Below are positions 23,368 through 30,151 of a stretch of DNA of 37,122 nucleotides, piece after piece. The first letter of the stretch is position 1. Every line of letters starts with the position of its first letter. The DNA is taken from positions 1 through 37,122 of IMG/VR virus record IMGVR_UViG_3300034106_000536, one strand, 5' to 3'. The position numbers and the translations under genes are program-made. The DNA comes from a virus. The notes beneath the pieces are model-generated. The model was not told the origin of the DNA. It did no database searches and saw only the letters and a program-made list of their open reading frames with translations.

Positions 23368-24909
23368 ATGGCAATTATATTACCTGGTGGATTTAACATA
23401 ACTAACAACGAACCCGTTGATGCTAGAATAACATTAGCGGACCAGACTGCCCGTTACGCTTTATCATCTGCTAATGTATATGAGGGGTTAATAGTTTTTC
23501 AGCAAGATAGTAATACAGTTTGGGTATTAACCGATACTGTAAATGTAGGAAATGAAAATGGTTGGACTCAACTACAAATAGGAAGTGTTAGTTCAAACCT
23601 TCCATCTGGTGTAGTTTCTGGTTCATCTCAATTAAGTGGAACTACTATTACAGATTTAACTATTATAAATTTAACAACTGTTAATCAAACCGCAAGTGTT
23701 TTATTTAGTAGTGGTTCTAATAAATTTGGTGATTTTAGTAATGATAACCATGAATTTACAGGTTCAGTTCAAATAAGTGGTTCAATTAATACAATAGGTG
23801 CATCAACTGCAACATCATTCAATGGTACAATAAACGCAACTAACGGAGTAATCTCTGGTTCATCTCAAATATTAGGTGGAAGTGGGTTAGTAAGTGGGTC
23901 ATCACAAGTAACTTTACAATCAACTACCGGATTTACTGCTTACGACACCGCATTAGCAACTATTACTGGTTCATTAATTAGTTCAGCATCAGCAGCTAAA
24001 ACTACAAATGACTCACAAGGAGTATCTATAACTAATTTAAACTCCGCAACTGCAAGTTTATTGATTGAAACGGCTAATTTGGAATCATTTACATCTTCAA
24101 TTAATACAACTATTAAATCAAAGTTGGATGCTGATGGTGTAATTTCTGGTTCATCTCAAATAACCGCAGGTTCTACTACAAACTTTGCAACCGATGTAAA
24201 AACTCAATTAAATTCAAATACGGTAGTATCTGGTTCTTCTCAAATTTCATTAAGTGGATTTAGTACAACTAACTTATCTGAAGGTACTAATTTATATTAT
24301 ACCGATGCTAGAGTTAAAACTAAATTAAATGCAGATGGTGTAGTATCTGGTTCGGCACAAATTAATGTTGCATCTACAACGGGTGATATTGCATTAGGGA
24401 CTAGAACATCTGGTAATTATGTTCAAACTATTGCAGGTAATACTACCAATGGTTTAACTGCTGCGGGTTCTGGATTGGAAAGTGCAGATGTAACATTGAC
24501 ATTGGCACAAAGTATAAAAACAGATGCGAATCCACAATTCAATTCATTGGGGATTGGAACCACCGCATCAACAACGGCTGGTGAAATTAGAGCAACGGGT
24601 GATATTACTGCATTTTACTCATCCGATATTAGATTAAAAGAAAATATCCAACCAATCCAAAACGCATTGGAAAAAGTTGAATCAATTAGTGGTAACACAT
24701 ACAATTGGAAAGAAGGATATGAAGAAATACATTCTCATAAAGGAAATGATGTTGGAGTAATAGCACAAGAAATTGAAGAAATCCTTCCACAAATTGTAAC
24801 AAATAGAGATAACGGATATAAAGCAGTTCAATATGAAAAAATAATTCCACTATTAATCGAAGCGATAAAAGAATTATCAGCAAGAGTTAATAGTTTGGAA
24901 AATAAATAA
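23368..24909 (+). CDS. Tail-fibre protein with S74 intramolecular chaperone
   Basis: This is a 513-residue protein. The N-terminal ~75 residues ('MAIILPGGFNITNNEPVDAR', 'NVYEGLIVFQQDSNTVWVLT') differ from the RRG type. The Ser-rich shaft shares a ~230-bp segment with the next fibre gene and one 'AAKTTNDSQGVSITN' module with the 16160 gene. The C-terminal 96 residues are a peptidase S74 domain: 'SSDIRLKENI' (S419-D420, K424), then 'GNDVGVIAQEIEEILPQIV' and a helical end. S74 domains fold the trimer and then cut themselves off next to the Ser of the S-D motif, leaving a stable fibre; release of about 95 residues is expected. The preceding gap is 15 nt with no promoter box, so it is co-transcribed with the 20341 gene. 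Confidence 0.88.
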   Translation: MAIILPGGFNITNNEPVDARITLADQTARYALSSANVYEGLIVFQQDSNTVWVLTDTVNVGNENGWTQLQIGSVSSNLPSGVVSGSSQLSGTTITDLTIINLTTVNQTASVLFSSGSNKFGDFSNDNHEFTGSVQISGSINTIGASTATSFNGTINATNGVISGSSQILGGSGLVSGSSQVTLQSTTGFTAYDTALATITGSLISSASAAKTTNDSQGVSITNLNSATASLLIETANLESFTSSINTTIKSKLDADGVISGSSQITAGSTTNFATDVKTQLNSNTVVSGSSQISLSGFSTTNLSEGTNLYYTDARVKTKLNADGVVSGSAQINVASTTGDIALGTRTSGNYVQTIAGNTTNGLTAAGSGLESADVTLTLAQSIKTDANPQFNSLGIGTTASTTAGEIRATGDITAFYSSDIRLKENIQPIQNALEKVESISGNTYNWKEGYEEIHSHKGNDVGVIAQEIEEILPQIVTNRDNGYKAVQYEKIIPLLIEAIKELSARVNSLENK

Positions 24910-24959: not shown

Positions 24960-27410
24960 ATGGCACTTAAATTTAGACGTGGGACAACCGCACAACAATC
25001 AGGTTCGTTAGCATTCGGAGAACCGTATGTAAACACAACATTAGGAACTTTATTAATTGGTGGTCCAAACGGAGACATTATATTAGGTTCATCTGGTACA
25101 GGTAGTACTGGAAATTTCGGAGCAATTTCAGGTTCAGGGTTAGATATTACCGGAAACGCAAATATTGCAGGTAATTTAACATTAGGTGGAGCTATCACAA
25201 TTGGTGATGCATCATCTGATACTGTAAATGTTGTAGCATCTTTGAGTTCATCTCTTATTCCACAAACTACAAACGCATTTGATTTAGGTTCTGCTACTAA
25301 ATTTTGGAGAGATTTATATATCTCAACAGGTTCAATCAAAATGGTTAATCCTGCAAATAATCAAGTAGTAACAACAATTAATGCAGTAGCAGGTGGTGGT
25401 ATTCAAATTGGTAATGTACAAATTACAACTGCATCAATTGCATTTGTGGATAATACTGGTGTAGTAACTCAAACAGTTGCACAATCATCATCTGTTGGTT
25501 CAACTAGTAATTATGCAGAAACATCTTCATTTAATGCATTTACATCATCTCAATTAACTCAAAATACTGCATTAGCAACTATTTCTGGTTCATTGATTTT
25601 AACTGCATCTGCAAATACAGTTTCAGTAGCAAACTTAAACACAACAACTGCAAGTTTATTAATTGAAACTGCTAATTTAGAATCATTTACATCTTCGATT
25701 AATACAACGATTAAAACTCAATTGGATTCAAATACAGTTGTTTCCGGTTCATCACAAATTGCATACGCGAGTATTAGTTCTATACCAGCAGGAATAGTAA
25801 GTGGAGCAGCACAAGTTACTCCATTATTACCAACGGGAACTATTAGTGGTTCTTCACAATTAAGTGGAACTAGTATTACAGATTTAACTATTATAAATTT
25901 AACAACTGTTAATCAAACGGCAAGTGTTGTATTTAGTAGCGGTTCTAACCGATTTGGTGATGCGGGGAATGATACACATTCATTTACAGGTTCAGTTCAA
26001 ATAAGTGGTTCACTTACAACAATAGGAGCATCAACTGCAACATCGTTTAATGGAGCAATAAATGCAACAAATGGTGTAGTAAGTGGTTCTTCGCAAGTAA
26101 TTGGTATATTGAGTTCTTTAAATACATATACTGGTTCAAATGATACAACTAATACTACACAAACAAGTAGATTAGACCAATTATCAACTGCAAGTGGAAG
26201 TGCAATTACAAGATTAACTGCATTAGAAGTTGAAACATCTAATTTAGAAACATTTACATCTTCTATTAATACTACAATTAAGACAAGATTAAATGCAGAA
26301 ACGGTTATAAGTGGTTCTTCACAGGTAGTAGGTTCTTCAATCACTACTAATACAGTGACAGTTGGTTCAACTGCAATTGCATTAGGTGGAACTGCAACAA
26401 CAATAGCAGGTTTAACTTCGGTTAGTTCAACTGGATTTACGGGAGCATTAACAGGTAACGCATCAACCGCAACTACATTAGCAACTGCAAGAACAATAAA
26501 CGGAACTTCATTTAATGGTTCTGCTGATATTACTATTCCAAATTTAGTATCTGGTTCATCACAAATTACCGCAGGTTCAACTACTGGATTTGCAACGGGT
26601 GTAAAAACTCAATTAGATGCAAATACGGTTGTTTCAGGTTCTGGACAAATTAACGTAGCATCTACAACGGGTGATATTGCATTAGGGACTAGAACATCTG
26701 GTAACTATGTAGCATCATTAGTAGCAGGAACTAACATTACTCTTTCTAATAATAGTGGTGAAGGTGCAACTCCAACAATTGGATTAACAAATAATACAAT
26801 TTCAGGTATCGCTTTAGGTTCTAATTTAGCAACCTTAACAATTGGTACGGGATTAAGTGGAACATCGTATAATGGTTCTACTGGAGTAACAATTGCAAAC
26901 ACAGGTGTAACTTCAAATGTTGCAGGTACAGGTGTAACGGTAAGTGGAGCAACTGGAGCAGTAACTATCTCAATCGGACAAGCAGTTGCAACATCTGATA
27001 ACGTAAGATTTAACTCTTTAGGTATAGGAATGGCTGCAACTGGAACTGCAGGTAGAATTGATGCAGCAAATGATATCGTTGCATTTTCATCTTCTGATAT
27101 TCGTTTCAAAGAAAACATCAAACCAATTGAAAACGCAATCGACAAAATCAGAAAGATTAGTGGTAACACATACGATTGGAAAGAAGAAAACAAAGTTGAG
27201 CACGGATATGAAGGAAACGATGTGGGTGTAATCGCACAAGAAATTGAAGCAGTATTACCTCAATTAGTTCAGACAAGAGAGAGTGGATTTAAGGCAGTTA
27301 AATACGATAAGTTAGTAGCATTACTAATCGAAGGTATTAAAGAACAACAATTACAAATAGAGCAATTAAGAATAGATTTAAATAATTGTACAAATAATAA
27401 AGGTTTATAA
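24960..27410 (+). CDS. Large tail-fibre protein with S74 intramolecular chaperone
   Basis: The product has 816 residues. The N-terminus 'MALKFRRGTTAQQSGSLAFG' is an RRG-type attachment domain, followed by 'LGTLLIGGPNGDIILGSSGT' and 'FDLGSATKFWRDLYISTGSI', the usual fibre base. The shaft is Ser/Thr/Ala-rich with modules shared with the preceding gene. The C-terminal 106 residues form an S74 domain with 'SSDIRFKENI' (S712-D713, K717) and 'GNDVGVIAQEIEAVLPQLV', ending in a short coiled coil with a single Cys ('LNNCTNNKGL'). Auto-cleavage beside S712 is expected from the family. The glycosyltransferase gene starts 3 nt downstream, so these two are almost certainly co-expressed. Confidence 0.9.
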   Translation: MALKFRRGTTAQQSGSLAFGEPYVNTTLGTLLIGGPNGDIILGSSGTGSTGNFGAISGSGLDITGNANIAGNLTLGGAITIGDASSDTVNVVASLSSSLIPQTTNAFDLGSATKFWRDLYISTGSIKMVNPANNQVVTTINAVAGGGIQIGNVQITTASIAFVDNTGVVTQTVAQSSSVGSTSNYAETSSFNAFTSSQLTQNTALATISGSLILTASANTVSVANLNTTTASLLIETANLESFTSSINTTIKTQLDSNTVVSGSSQIAYASISSIPAGIVSGAAQVTPLLPTGTISGSSQLSGTSITDLTIINLTTVNQTASVVFSSGSNRFGDAGNDTHSFTGSVQISGSLTTIGASTATSFNGAINATNGVVSGSSQVIGILSSLNTYTGSNDTTNTTQTSRLDQLSTASGSAITRLTALEVETSNLETFTSSINTTIKTRLNAETVISGSSQVVGSSITTNTVTVGSTAIALGGTATTIAGLTSVSSTGFTGALTGNASTATTLATARTINGTSFNGSADITIPNLVSGSSQITAGSTTGFATGVKTQLDANTVVSGSGQINVASTTGDIALGTRTSGNYVASLVAGTNITLSNNSGEGATPTIGLTNNTISGIALGSNLATLTIGTGLSGTSYNGSTGVTIANTGVTSNVAGTGVTVSGATGAVTISIGQAVATSDNVRFNSLGIGMAATGTAGRIDAANDIVAFSSSDIRFKENIKPIENAIDKIRKISGNTYDWKEENKVEHGYEGNDVGVIAQEIEAVLPQLVQTRESGFKAVKYDKLVALLIEGIKEQQLQIEQLRIDLNNCTNNKGL

Positions 27411-27413
27411 TTA

Positions 27414-28412
27414 ATGTATGATGTTTACTACACCACCGCTGGAGGTCCTTGGTTCAATAGCGGTGCTGATATGTGGGTAACCGAATGGATAAAAGAAGTG
27501 GCTCCTCATTTAGAAGTGAAGCCACTTCTTCTTTTCCATAGACATAGACCTAACAACTATGAAGAATTTCCAATTGATATTGACCACATTTGGGAAACAT
27601 CTGAAGATGAAATTATAAAACATTTAGAAGGTGCAAGACGGATACATATTCTTCATGGTCATTATACCCCAACTAGAGCTATTCATCAAAATTTGGAAAA
27701 GATTGATTCAATTATTTTCCATAATTTAACAAAAGTGTCTTTATTGGCACAAATGGAAAAAGATGAATATTTACATTGGTATGGTAATTGGGAATATGAA
27801 AGCGAATTAATTAATAAAATTAAAAATAAAGTTTGGGTAGGGTTATATCATTTTCCATATAAAACAGAAAATTTATATCACATCCCAAATGTTTATAAAT
27901 TTAAACAAAATAAAGAGCTTTCAGAATCTATTGAGATAGGATACGCCGCTAGAGTAGAAGGTAGAAAGAATGTTGAATATATGAATGGGTTAGGTGGATT
28001 TATTTCTACAAATTCAGAAACATTCAACAAATACTATAAAAAGAAATATGGATTCAAATTCGAAAAATCCAAAGTTTACAAATTTGATTATAAATTTAAA
28101 GAAAGGTTCTATGAACTTGATTGGGGAATCTCTCATTCTTGTTTTGAGCACGAACCCTTCGGATATGGTATATTTGAGGCAGTGGATTGGGGTAAACTTC
28201 CCATATTACATGAAGATTGGCATGTTCCACTTGATTACAAATACAAAGCGAATAATGCGGAAACATTTAAAAAAACCTACCAAATAATTTGTGAGGATAG
28301 TTACGAAACCCGTAAAACAGAATTCCAAAAACTTAAAAGTTGGATGATAAAACACTTTTCAAACAAAGAAGTATGGAAAGAAAAACTTTTAGATATTTAT
28401 AACGGAGAATAA
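27414..28412 (+). CDS. GT-B fold glycosyltransferase (GT4-like) in the fibre cassette
   Basis: This 332-residue protein lacks membrane segments and signal peptide, so it should act in the host cytoplasm. The N-terminal half contains a 'TTAGGPWFNSGADMWVTEW' start and a His-rich 'HILHGHYTPTRAIHQ', as expected for an acceptor-binding Rossmann domain. The C-terminal half has 'GYAARVEGRKN' (176-186) and the nucleotide-sugar signature 'HEPFGYGIFEAVDWGKLPIL' with the E-x7-E pair E247/E255, the hallmark of GT4-like retaining enzymes. It lies 3 nt after one fibre gene and 11 nt before the Hint-domain fibre gene. The acceptor is unknown; options are Ser/Thr-rich fibre shafts, host surface glycans or phage DNA. 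Location favours fibre modification, as inference only. Confidence 0.82.
   Translation: MYDVYYTTAGGPWFNSGADMWVTEWIKEVAPHLEVKPLLLFHRHRPNNYEEFPIDIDHIWETSEDEIIKHLEGARRIHILHGHYTPTRAIHQNLEKIDSIIFHNLTKVSLLAQMEKDEYLHWYGNWEYESELINKIKNKVWVGLYHFPYKTENLYHIPNVYKFKQNKELSESIEIGYAARVEGRKNVEYMNGLGGFISTNSETFNKYYKKKYGFKFEKSKVYKFDYKFKERFYELDWGISHSCFEHEPFGYGIFEAVDWGKLPILHEDWHVPLDYKYKANNAETFKKTYQIICEDSYETRKTEFQKLKSWMIKHFSNKEVWKEKLLDIYNGE
28393..28401 (+). promoter_or_regulatory. ATATTTATA box inside the 3' end of the glycosyltransferase gene
   Basis: An exact 9-mer in codons for Asp-Ile-Tyr near the gene's end, 22 nt before the ATG at 28424. It has the usual spacing although it overlaps coding sequence. Confidence 0.4.
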
Positions 28413-28423
28413 TACATACGAAT

Positions 28424-30151
28424 ATGCCAAGAACTAATTTATCATTAGGAAATTTATATAGAGCAGTTAGCGGGTCAGCCCGAACATCTCAAGCAGTTTC
28501 CATTGGTGGGCTATCTGGAGGAACATCTAATAGTTCATTTACCGCATTTGCAATAGATTCTGTAACCCCAAATTTACCAACTTTCACTTACATTGTAGAA
28601 AGTACAGAAGAAGCGGCAACATTTTCATTTGGAACTGCGGGTACACTGCATGGTACTAAAGTTGGTAACGTAGCAGCAAACTATTCAGTAACATTTAATA
28701 ATGGAAACTTTACAGTAGGTTCACCCACTTTAGGTGCATCTCCATCATTTCCAATAACTCCTGCATCAATCGCTCAATCAACATATTCAGAAGCATCTTC
28801 TGTATTATCTATGAAGTATGAAGATGGTTATAATTTAGCAGCAACTGGCTATAATTCAACATCTACAAAAACATTATACGCGGTAGATGTGTACAACACA
28901 ATTAACCAACCTGATTTCTGTTTATTATTTGGAACAAAAATAACTAAAGCGGATGGAACTATTGTAAATGTAGAAGACCTTTCGGTGGGTGATACTATTA
29001 AAGCATGGGTACCAGATGGTTTACCTGATGAAGACCAGGATTCAGAATCAGACCAAGTTGATTGGAGATTCTATATGTTAGAAAATCAATCTGGCTCATA
29101 TCAAGAAGTAAATGTAGCAGATATTGTCTTTAACTTTGCAAGTGGATATTATGATTTAAACAATGGTTTAATCAAATCAACTGGAACTCACCCTCTTTGG
29201 GTTTGGGATAGTGAAATTGAAAAATATCGTTTCAAAAATGTTGAAGATGTATTACCAGGTGATTTAGTAGTAACATACGATTCAGTGACAGGTTTAAATG
29301 AAATAGAAATTACTGATATTGAGGTAATAATTGAAGATGTTGAAATTGTAACACTTAATGTGGAAAATGCTGACGTTTATTTAGCAAACGGTATTGTATC
29401 TCATAACAAAGGAACTACTACACAACCACCAATTCCAGCTGCTGGATTAAGATTATATTTAGACCCATCCAAAGCATCATCTACAAACGGAACTGTTACA
29501 ACGGATTGGTTAGATTTAAGTGGATATAATACGGGTGTTAGACCTGCGGGTGTTGCAAACGCAGCTGGTATTACTGGTGATAACCCATCATATAATAACG
29601 GAGCAACAAGAAAAGATAAATATTTCGCAGGAAATGGTACAAACCAATTTTGGTACAAAGATACTACTACCAACATCAATGGGGGGTATTCTCAATTCAA
29701 TACTAATACTGGTACAATTCACGTATGGGTTAGACCTACAACAACATTGGGTGTAGCATCACGACATATTTTTGATTACGCTGGATTTTATGGTTTAGCA
29801 ATTGAATCATCTGATAGTTCTACTTTGAATAGAGTAAAATTCTATGGTAGTACATTAGGAAATAGTGCACAATTAACAACATCATTATCATCAAACGTAT
29901 GGTATATGATTTCTGCAACATTCCAACCATCGGGAACGGTGACAGTTTATGTAGATAAAACTTCAGTAGGAACATTTACTGCATCAGCATTTACGGCACC
30001 ATCATCTACTAACTTCTTAACAATTGGATGTAATAGTGGTAGAACAACATTCTGGAATGGACAAATCGGACCTGTATTATTCTACAACACATTGCAAAAC
30101 GCAACATCGGTAGGACAAGTATATGATTATTTTTCTCCAACATACAAATAG
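28424..30151 (+). CDS. Fibre-like protein: N-terminal domain, Hint (intein-like) domain, LamG domain
   Basis: The product has 575 residues in three parts. Residues 1-165 are a beta-rich structural domain ('MPRTNLSLGNLYRAVSGSAR'). Residues 166-328 are a Hint autoprocessing domain: Cys166 in 'CLLFGTKITKADGTI', 'DLSVGDTIKAW', the block-B T-x-x-H at 'STGTHPLWV' (T253, H256), 'VEDVLPGDLVVTY', and the end 'VYLANGIVSHN' (His327-Asn328). Residue 329 is Lys, not Cys/Ser/Thr. Residues 340-575 form a LamG-like jelly roll ('AAGLRLYLDPSKASS', 'TIHVWVRPTT', 'WNGQIGPVLFYN'). The family chemistry predicts cleavage at Cys166 and after Asn328. A complete splice is less likely without a +1 nucleophile. No endonuclease domain fits in 163 residues. 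It probably makes a self-processed receptor-binding fibre. Confidence 0.87.
   Translation: MPRTNLSLGNLYRAVSGSARTSQAVSIGGLSGGTSNSSFTAFAIDSVTPNLPTFTYIVESTEEAATFSFGTAGTLHGTKVGNVAANYSVTFNNGNFTVGSPTLGASPSFPITPASIAQSTYSEASSVLSMKYEDGYNLAATGYNSTSTKTLYAVDVYNTINQPDFCLLFGTKITKADGTIVNVEDLSVGDTIKAWVPDGLPDEDQDSESDQVDWRFYMLENQSGSYQEVNVADIVFNFASGYYDLNNGLIKSTGTHPLWVWDSEIEKYRFKNVEDVLPGDLVVTYDSVTGLNEIEITDIEVIIEDVEIVTLNVENADVYLANGIVSHNKGTTTQPPIPAAGLRLYLDPSKASSTNGTVTTDWLDLSGYNTGVRPAGVANAAGITGDNPSYNNGATRKDKYFAGNGTNQFWYKDTTTNINGGYSQFNTNTGTIHVWVRPTTTLGVASRHIFDYAGFYGLAIESSDSSTLNRVKFYGSTLGNSAQLTTSLSSNVWYMISATFQPSGTVTVYVDKTSVGTFTASAFTAPSSTNFLTIGCNSGRTTFWNGQIGPVLFYNTLQNATSVGQVYDYFSPTYK
28919..29407 (+). other. Hint/bacterial-intein-like domain coding segment
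   Basis: This segment runs from the codon for Cys166 to that for Asn328 of the fibre-like product. The N-terminal Cys, T-x-x-H block and C-terminal His-Asn are all present, so the active-site set for N-S acyl shift and Asn cyclisation looks intact. A strongly acidic insertion ('PDEDQDSESDQVDW') lies at residues 201-214, where larger inteins may carry other domains. The Lys at +1 fits the bacterial intein-like (BIL) class rather than classical inteins. Confidence 0.83.

Follow-up and report, generated by a model that had tools for sequence, protein, structure and literature searches.

The window, by which we mean the whole stretch of 37,122 nucleotides analysed here (a virus record of 37 kb), encodes a fibre-like protein in which a Hint domain is placed between an N-terminal domain and a LamG-like tip (Table 1). 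Fold and profile evidence, which we regard as decisive, indicates that this Hint domain is real, complete and bacterial intein-like (BIL), and its terminal His-Asn together with the lack of Cys, Ser or Thr at position +1 make it, judged from sequence and model, an A-type BIL. The sequence-only reading had described a complete Hint domain lying between two other domains, and inspection of the open reading frame (ORF) found all of the key residues it named where it had placed them.

Table 1. Positions in the window of the Hint fibre-like gene, its domains and predicted active residues, and the partner gene.
Feature	Position	Strand	Remarks
Hint fibre-like protein	28424..30151	+	ORF of 575 aa; N-domain, Hint, LamG-like tip
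N-domain	28424..28918	+	residues 1-165, ending VYNTINQPDF; no named family; from alignment
Hint domain	28919..29407	+	residues 166-328, C1 to HN; from AF2, Foldseek against PDB and profile against PDB
Cys166, Hint residue 1, predicted thioester	28919-28921 (TGT)	+	Cys in 92/92
Block B motif T253-G-T-H256	29180..29191	+	T253 ACT 29180-29182; H256 CAC 29189-29191
H327-N328, predicted Asn cyclisation site	29402..29407 (CATAAC)	+	both 92/92
+1 Lys329 and +2 Gly330	29408..29413	+	K329 AAA 29408-29410; both 92/92
Linker and LamG/concanavalin A-like tip, swapped among phages	29414..30148	+	PF13385, 8.6e-15
GT4-like partner gene	27414..28412	+	332 aa; motif EPFGYGIFEAVDWGKLPIL; immediately upstream of Hint gene

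The Hint-only AF2 model, computed with relatives added, had a pLDDT of 93.1 and a pTM of 0.87, and when it was compared with the PDB using Foldseek the 50 matches listed were all Hint-fold proteins, with Tetrahymena BIL2 first, followed by hedgehog, a Cryptococcus intein, the Clostridium thermocellum BIL and many inteins. The horseshoe fold proposed for residues 166-328 was thus supported by structure prediction. A profile of 70 Lys+1 Hints searched against the PDB matched the BIL domain 2lwy at 1.1e-26 and BIL2 at 5e-25, followed by inteins, starting near 1e-15, and by hedgehog (6e-7), and the best E-values of the other profile members against Hint models ranged from 1e-8 to 3e-25. The expected profile match to Hint and BIL models therefore held for the 70-sequence profile, but not for the window sequence alone, which stayed below the Pfam thresholds for Hint_2 (E 0.038, 14.8 bits against a cut-off of 28.4) and Intein_splicing (E 0.05, 13.8 bits against 35.8), so that routine annotation could miss the domain. 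A search of the window sequence for a PHROG annotation of the protein gave no significant match.

The C-terminal domain was matched by Pfam Laminin_G_3 (8.6e-15, residues 423-562), its strands beginning near residue 342 in the AF2 model; the full-length model has a LamG/lectin-type fold at the C-terminus and low confidence at residues 330-333. This full-length architecture was shared by 80 of the 80 best viral homologues. The gene has two S74-type fibre genes upstream and tail sheath and tail tube genes downstream, a head maturation protease and the major head protein being encoded in the region to its left, and it belongs to the structural gene region of a freshwater phage that is T4-like, with a contractile tail. 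The protein is probably a tail-fibre protein, its location in the virion being suggested by the gene order. The contigs carrying near-identical copies reached 145 kb, and those with other relatives 238 kb. Each of the neighbouring fibre-like proteins (23368-24909 and 24960-27410) carries a C-terminal Peptidase_S74 chaperone domain (about 1e-17), which would bring two different self-processing systems close together in the fibre region.

Lysine was observed at +1 in all 92 aligned homologues (31-85% identical to the window), which rules out ordinary class 1 splicing via Cys, Ser or Thr, a route that had earlier been called disfavoured; Lys329-Gly330 is invariant and is not a degraded splice site. 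Counts of the +1 residue were taken from three samples, namely two pattern searches with +1 left free (viral contigs and GTDB) and a third set chosen by its GT neighbour, and a first pattern survey which demanded Lys-Gly was excluded. The distinct viral matches comprised 56 with Lys, 13 with Cys, 12 with Thr, two with Ser and one with Arg, while GTDB gave 42 Cys, 26 Lys, seven Ser, four Glu, three Ala, one Met and one Tyr. Hint domains from these +1-free searches fall into two sets, one with Cys, Ser or Thr, whose members look, as read from their flanks, mainly like inteins in enzymes, and one with Lys, whose viral members are largely proteins of structural appearance; seven of the GTDB Lys cases terminate exactly at that lysine. 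The excess survives clustering at 45% identity, since, of the clusters lacking Cys, Ser and Thr, Lys made up 13 of 18 in GTDB and four of five in the viral set. Where Hints had been picked solely by their GT neighbour, those downstream of the GT had Lys at +1 in 61 of 61 cases, four of these proteins containing a second HN within the tip. Other residues at +1 do occur: some remote phages have a further Hint protein upstream of the GT, with Val, Thr or Gly there, and phage NCTB and Erwinia phage Y3 have Ala or Thr. At 35% linkage the Hints join into a single family, so that conservation of the lysine may be due in part to common descent, but the Lys label has to change two or more times on the tree. 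In this tree, which is weakly resolved, the phage fibre Hints, that of the window among them, make up one supported group.

In Hint chemistry the Cys at residue 1 takes up the preceding carbonyl as a thioester and the terminal Asn cyclises. In the route that we infer for the phage protein, Cys166 would take the carbonyl of F165 into a thioester, cyclisation of Asn328 would free the Hint C-terminus, and an amine of Lys329 (the epsilon-amine directly, or the alpha-amine following C-terminal cleavage) would attack the thioester. The Hint would be lost, the N-domain anchor and LamG tip would become linked via a peptide or isopeptide bond, hydrolysis would yield a cleaved side product, and the Hint would in effect act as a fixed joint accepting different tips. 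Self-removal of an A-type BIL-like Hint with Lys329 as acceptor amine is the reading that we prefer, tentatively, at a little under an even chance. Tip ligation cannot account for Lys conservation in every case, since in some relatives HN is followed by no more than a few residues or by a single Lys, and the Arg found at +1 in one Hint is no amine nucleophile. Lys329 is favoured as the acceptor by the Lys-specific conservation taken with the published example of BIL2, which is reported to splice through an isopeptide at a Lys epsilon-NH2, the acceptor Lys not necessarily being at +1, and to conjugate its N-extein to other substrates (PMC8616854). Ligation by a BIL domain without a nucleophilic side chain is stated in the title of Aranko 2013, as cited in PMC7664689, and the alpha-amine would accordingly be an alternative acceptor.

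BIL domains mostly give cleaved products (PMC7664689), which weighs against ligation by Lys329 and leads to the main rival, namely that cleavage is the only outcome. Hydrolysis of the C166 thioester and cyclisation of Asn328 would then split N-domain, Hint and tip, and the tip would be released or held non-covalently, close to what the sequence-only reading had proposed. Every residue needed for cleavage is present, and domains of this type without a +1 nucleophile yield mainly such products (PMC7664689, PMC7765530). However, cleavage alone leaves the Lys-specific +1 unexplained, a conserved lectin tip would no longer have its evident use once severed from the anchor, and relatives that have no tip retain the same residues, and we consider this explanation somewhat doubtful. 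In these remote relatives the ORF stops 4-9 residues past His-Asn (e.g. HNKGSN-stop), and C1, the block B His, HN and K+1 are retained, for which reason tip release was rejected as a general function and the earlier suggestion that it is the purpose of the design is weakened. Nor was the design found to be uncommon, as had been supposed, since the same architecture occurs in hundreds of viral contigs.

Tips in the relatives were different LamG domains, fn3-like domains (a label that reflects our reading of the sequence) or others. Pairs were found in which the N-domain was 99%, the Hint 96% and the tip 42% identical, and the reverse was also found; identity in the swapped pairs breaks directly past the Hint and linker, indicating that tips recombine at this point. 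Sequence comparison thus identifies N-domain, Hint and Lys-Gly as the constant core, to which the tip is an add-on. Related Hints occur in several other phage structural-protein families. A tblastn search of isolated phages with the protein returned no convincing close relative, and nor did a search of GTDB genomes.

A Hint was carried by 174 of 175 N-domain ORFs, indicating that it is a permanent part of the protein rather than a sporadic selfish intein, and no Hint-free allele was found among the 175, barring one shortened reading frame. That frame, on contig 3300031951_008394, has an apparent internal deletion and frame shift, leaving a 188-aa N-domain ORF, and as it was seen in a single contig it was rejected as a Hint-free allele. 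An ordinary mobile intein was rejected on account of the +1 Lys, the want of a Hint-free allele and the absence of a homing endonuclease insertion from the window Hint, which measures 163 residues from C1 to Asn.

In the 92-sequence alignment C166, H256-P257, N322, H327, N328, K329 and G330 were all invariant, and T253 was Thr in 88 sequences and Asn in four. Identity of residues across so many sequences at 31-85% identity indicates that their conservation is not due to chance, and the codons for H256, H327, N328, K329 and G330 showed synonymous variation and never any other kind, indicating selection on the protein. Mean column identity is lower in the Hint (77%) than in the tip (90%), and against this background the fixed catalytic residues stand out. 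These observations bear on the proposal that the Hint is catalytically silent and serves as a structural spacer in an intact, assembled chain. Hint folds are compact beta domains and could form a rigid joint, but C1, the block B His, HN and the +1 Lys are invariant within the less conserved domain, and the first three are catalytic in known Hints and are not needed by the fold. A silent spacer is in our judgement improbable, and activity of the domain, all of the presumed chemistries being taken together, is very probable.

Of 144 distinct N-domain/Hint genes for which the upstream sequence was long enough, 143 had the GT-like gene immediately upstream. When the test was reversed, starting from a divergent GT-like copy, a Hint gene was adjoining in 76 of 77 loci, and in the remaining one the contig ends inside the Hint. 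The pairing is near-obligate across distant phages. A GT4-like EX7E-type motif is conserved in the partner family; one of 16 members matched PF00534, at a non-significant 0.066, and the partner protein had no significant match in Pfam or in the PDB. In some remote phages the GT-like gene lies between two Hint genes. Among isolate and assembled phage records the sole GT-like relative was in LR756508.1, a 484-kb uncultured phage, in which it adjoins a Hint protein that ends HNKH-stop and has an N-terminal region that is different by eye. Modification of this same fibre is the probable role of the GT-like protein.

The GT-like partner also enters into a hedgehog-like transfer, in which the N-domain thioester would be passed to an outside acceptor, either a sugar from the GT-like partner or an amine on an adjacent subunit of the virion, leaving the N-domain covalently anchored and the tip as an optional passenger. 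Such transfer would account for the tip-less relatives and for the constant partner, and the GT of LR756508.1, next to a Hint protein with an apparently different N-terminal region, is in keeping with it. To our knowledge no acceptor has been described. Conjugation of the BIL2 N-extein to other substrates (PMC8616854) also argues for it, but the GT family assignment is by motif only and pure transfer would not need Asn328 or Lys+1, and we regard this explanation as very improbable. Ligation through Lys329 can be extended to a wider proposal, of a distinct and widespread Lys+1 Hint class in phages and bacteria, with the +1 lysine as acceptor, an anchor joined by isopeptide to interchangeable tips in cis or on neighbouring subunits, and a near-obligate GT-like module that would modify the anchor or supply a sugar acceptor; taken as a whole we hold this to be unlikely.

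Of the known systems, the A-type BIL of Clostridium thermocellum (PDB 2lwy) shares with the phage domain the Hint fold (TMt 0.82, rmsd 2.5), the His-Asn end, the lack of Cys, Ser or Thr at +1 and a variable, non-enzyme host protein, whereas in the phage domain an invariant Lys-Gly begins at +1, the host protein is fibre-like with a tip that can be exchanged, and a GT-like gene is its fixed neighbour. The best Foldseek match of the Hint model, BIL2 of the Tetrahymena BUBL1 polyubiquitin locus (PDB 6y75, 6tmm), comes from a ciliate, is flanked by ubiquitin-like domains and is reported to form a Lys isopeptide. Class 1 mini-inteins (Ssp DnaB, Mtu RecA) are alike in fold, C1, block B TxxH and terminal His-Asn; unlike them, the phage Hint lacks a +1 Cys, Ser or Thr, its host protein is no conserved enzyme and no Hint-free allele was found. 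With the hedgehog Hog domain (PDB 1at0) it has the fold and the C1 thioester site in common, but a terminal His-Asn is present, the sterol-recognition region is lacking, and LamG, fn3-like or few residues follow.

Hint domains annotated in phage tail proteins are already known, the proteins of phage NCTB (BN7874_136) and Erwinia phage vB_EamM_Y3 (gp110) being labelled 'Putative phage tail protein, contains intein domain', and the top viral fold matches included 506-aa and 153-aa entries, lengths equal to those of NCTB proteins. These are likewise Hints within phage structural proteins, but the NCTB and Y3 proteins are collagen-like, have the Hint at the very C-terminus and had no GT-like neighbour within the annotated stretch examined. 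In phage NCTB (L514, 4517-7136) two Hint proteins and a collagen-like fibre protein are encoded by overlapping consecutive genes, and the small Hint protein ends HNKVD-stop and has a start without the usual C1 motif.

No description of the architecture, of the Lys+1 class or of the GT pairing was found in the open-access literature searched, an absence which is no proof of novelty. The phage protein would give BIL chemistry a further use, as a joint that processes itself and connects a fixed anchor to lectin-like tips that can be swapped; the design recurs in phages and could allow fibre parts to be joined, cut or transferred with no helper enzyme. It also raises the testable question of why Hints without Cys, Ser or Thr at +1 so often have Lys there. 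If the lysine is the acceptor, freshwater phages would encode hundreds of ATP-free isopeptide ligases, a matter for protein engineering as well as for the question of how binding tips become diverse in phages. The pairing with a GT-like gene, being constant, points to a virion-protein modification system of which the open-access literature searched gave no description.

Tandem Hint arrays were observed in six cases (Legionella, planctomycetes, Lentisphaerae and others), in which the linkers consist solely of Lys-Gly or Lys-Gly-Gly-Gly (VHN KG CFLP), and with linkers so short the +1 Lys of one domain nearly touches the next C1. Tandem Hints with Ala or Leu at +1 were found in a 773-aa ORF (about 197663-198055 on a contig of 201,940 bases), which shares this phage contig with a protein of the window family. 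Lys+1 Hints also lie at the C-terminus of three proteins which we take, by eye, to be lambda tail-protein-I-like, and at the N-terminus of five others which are presumably lambda J-like, with the junction HN|KGGGKGGGS.
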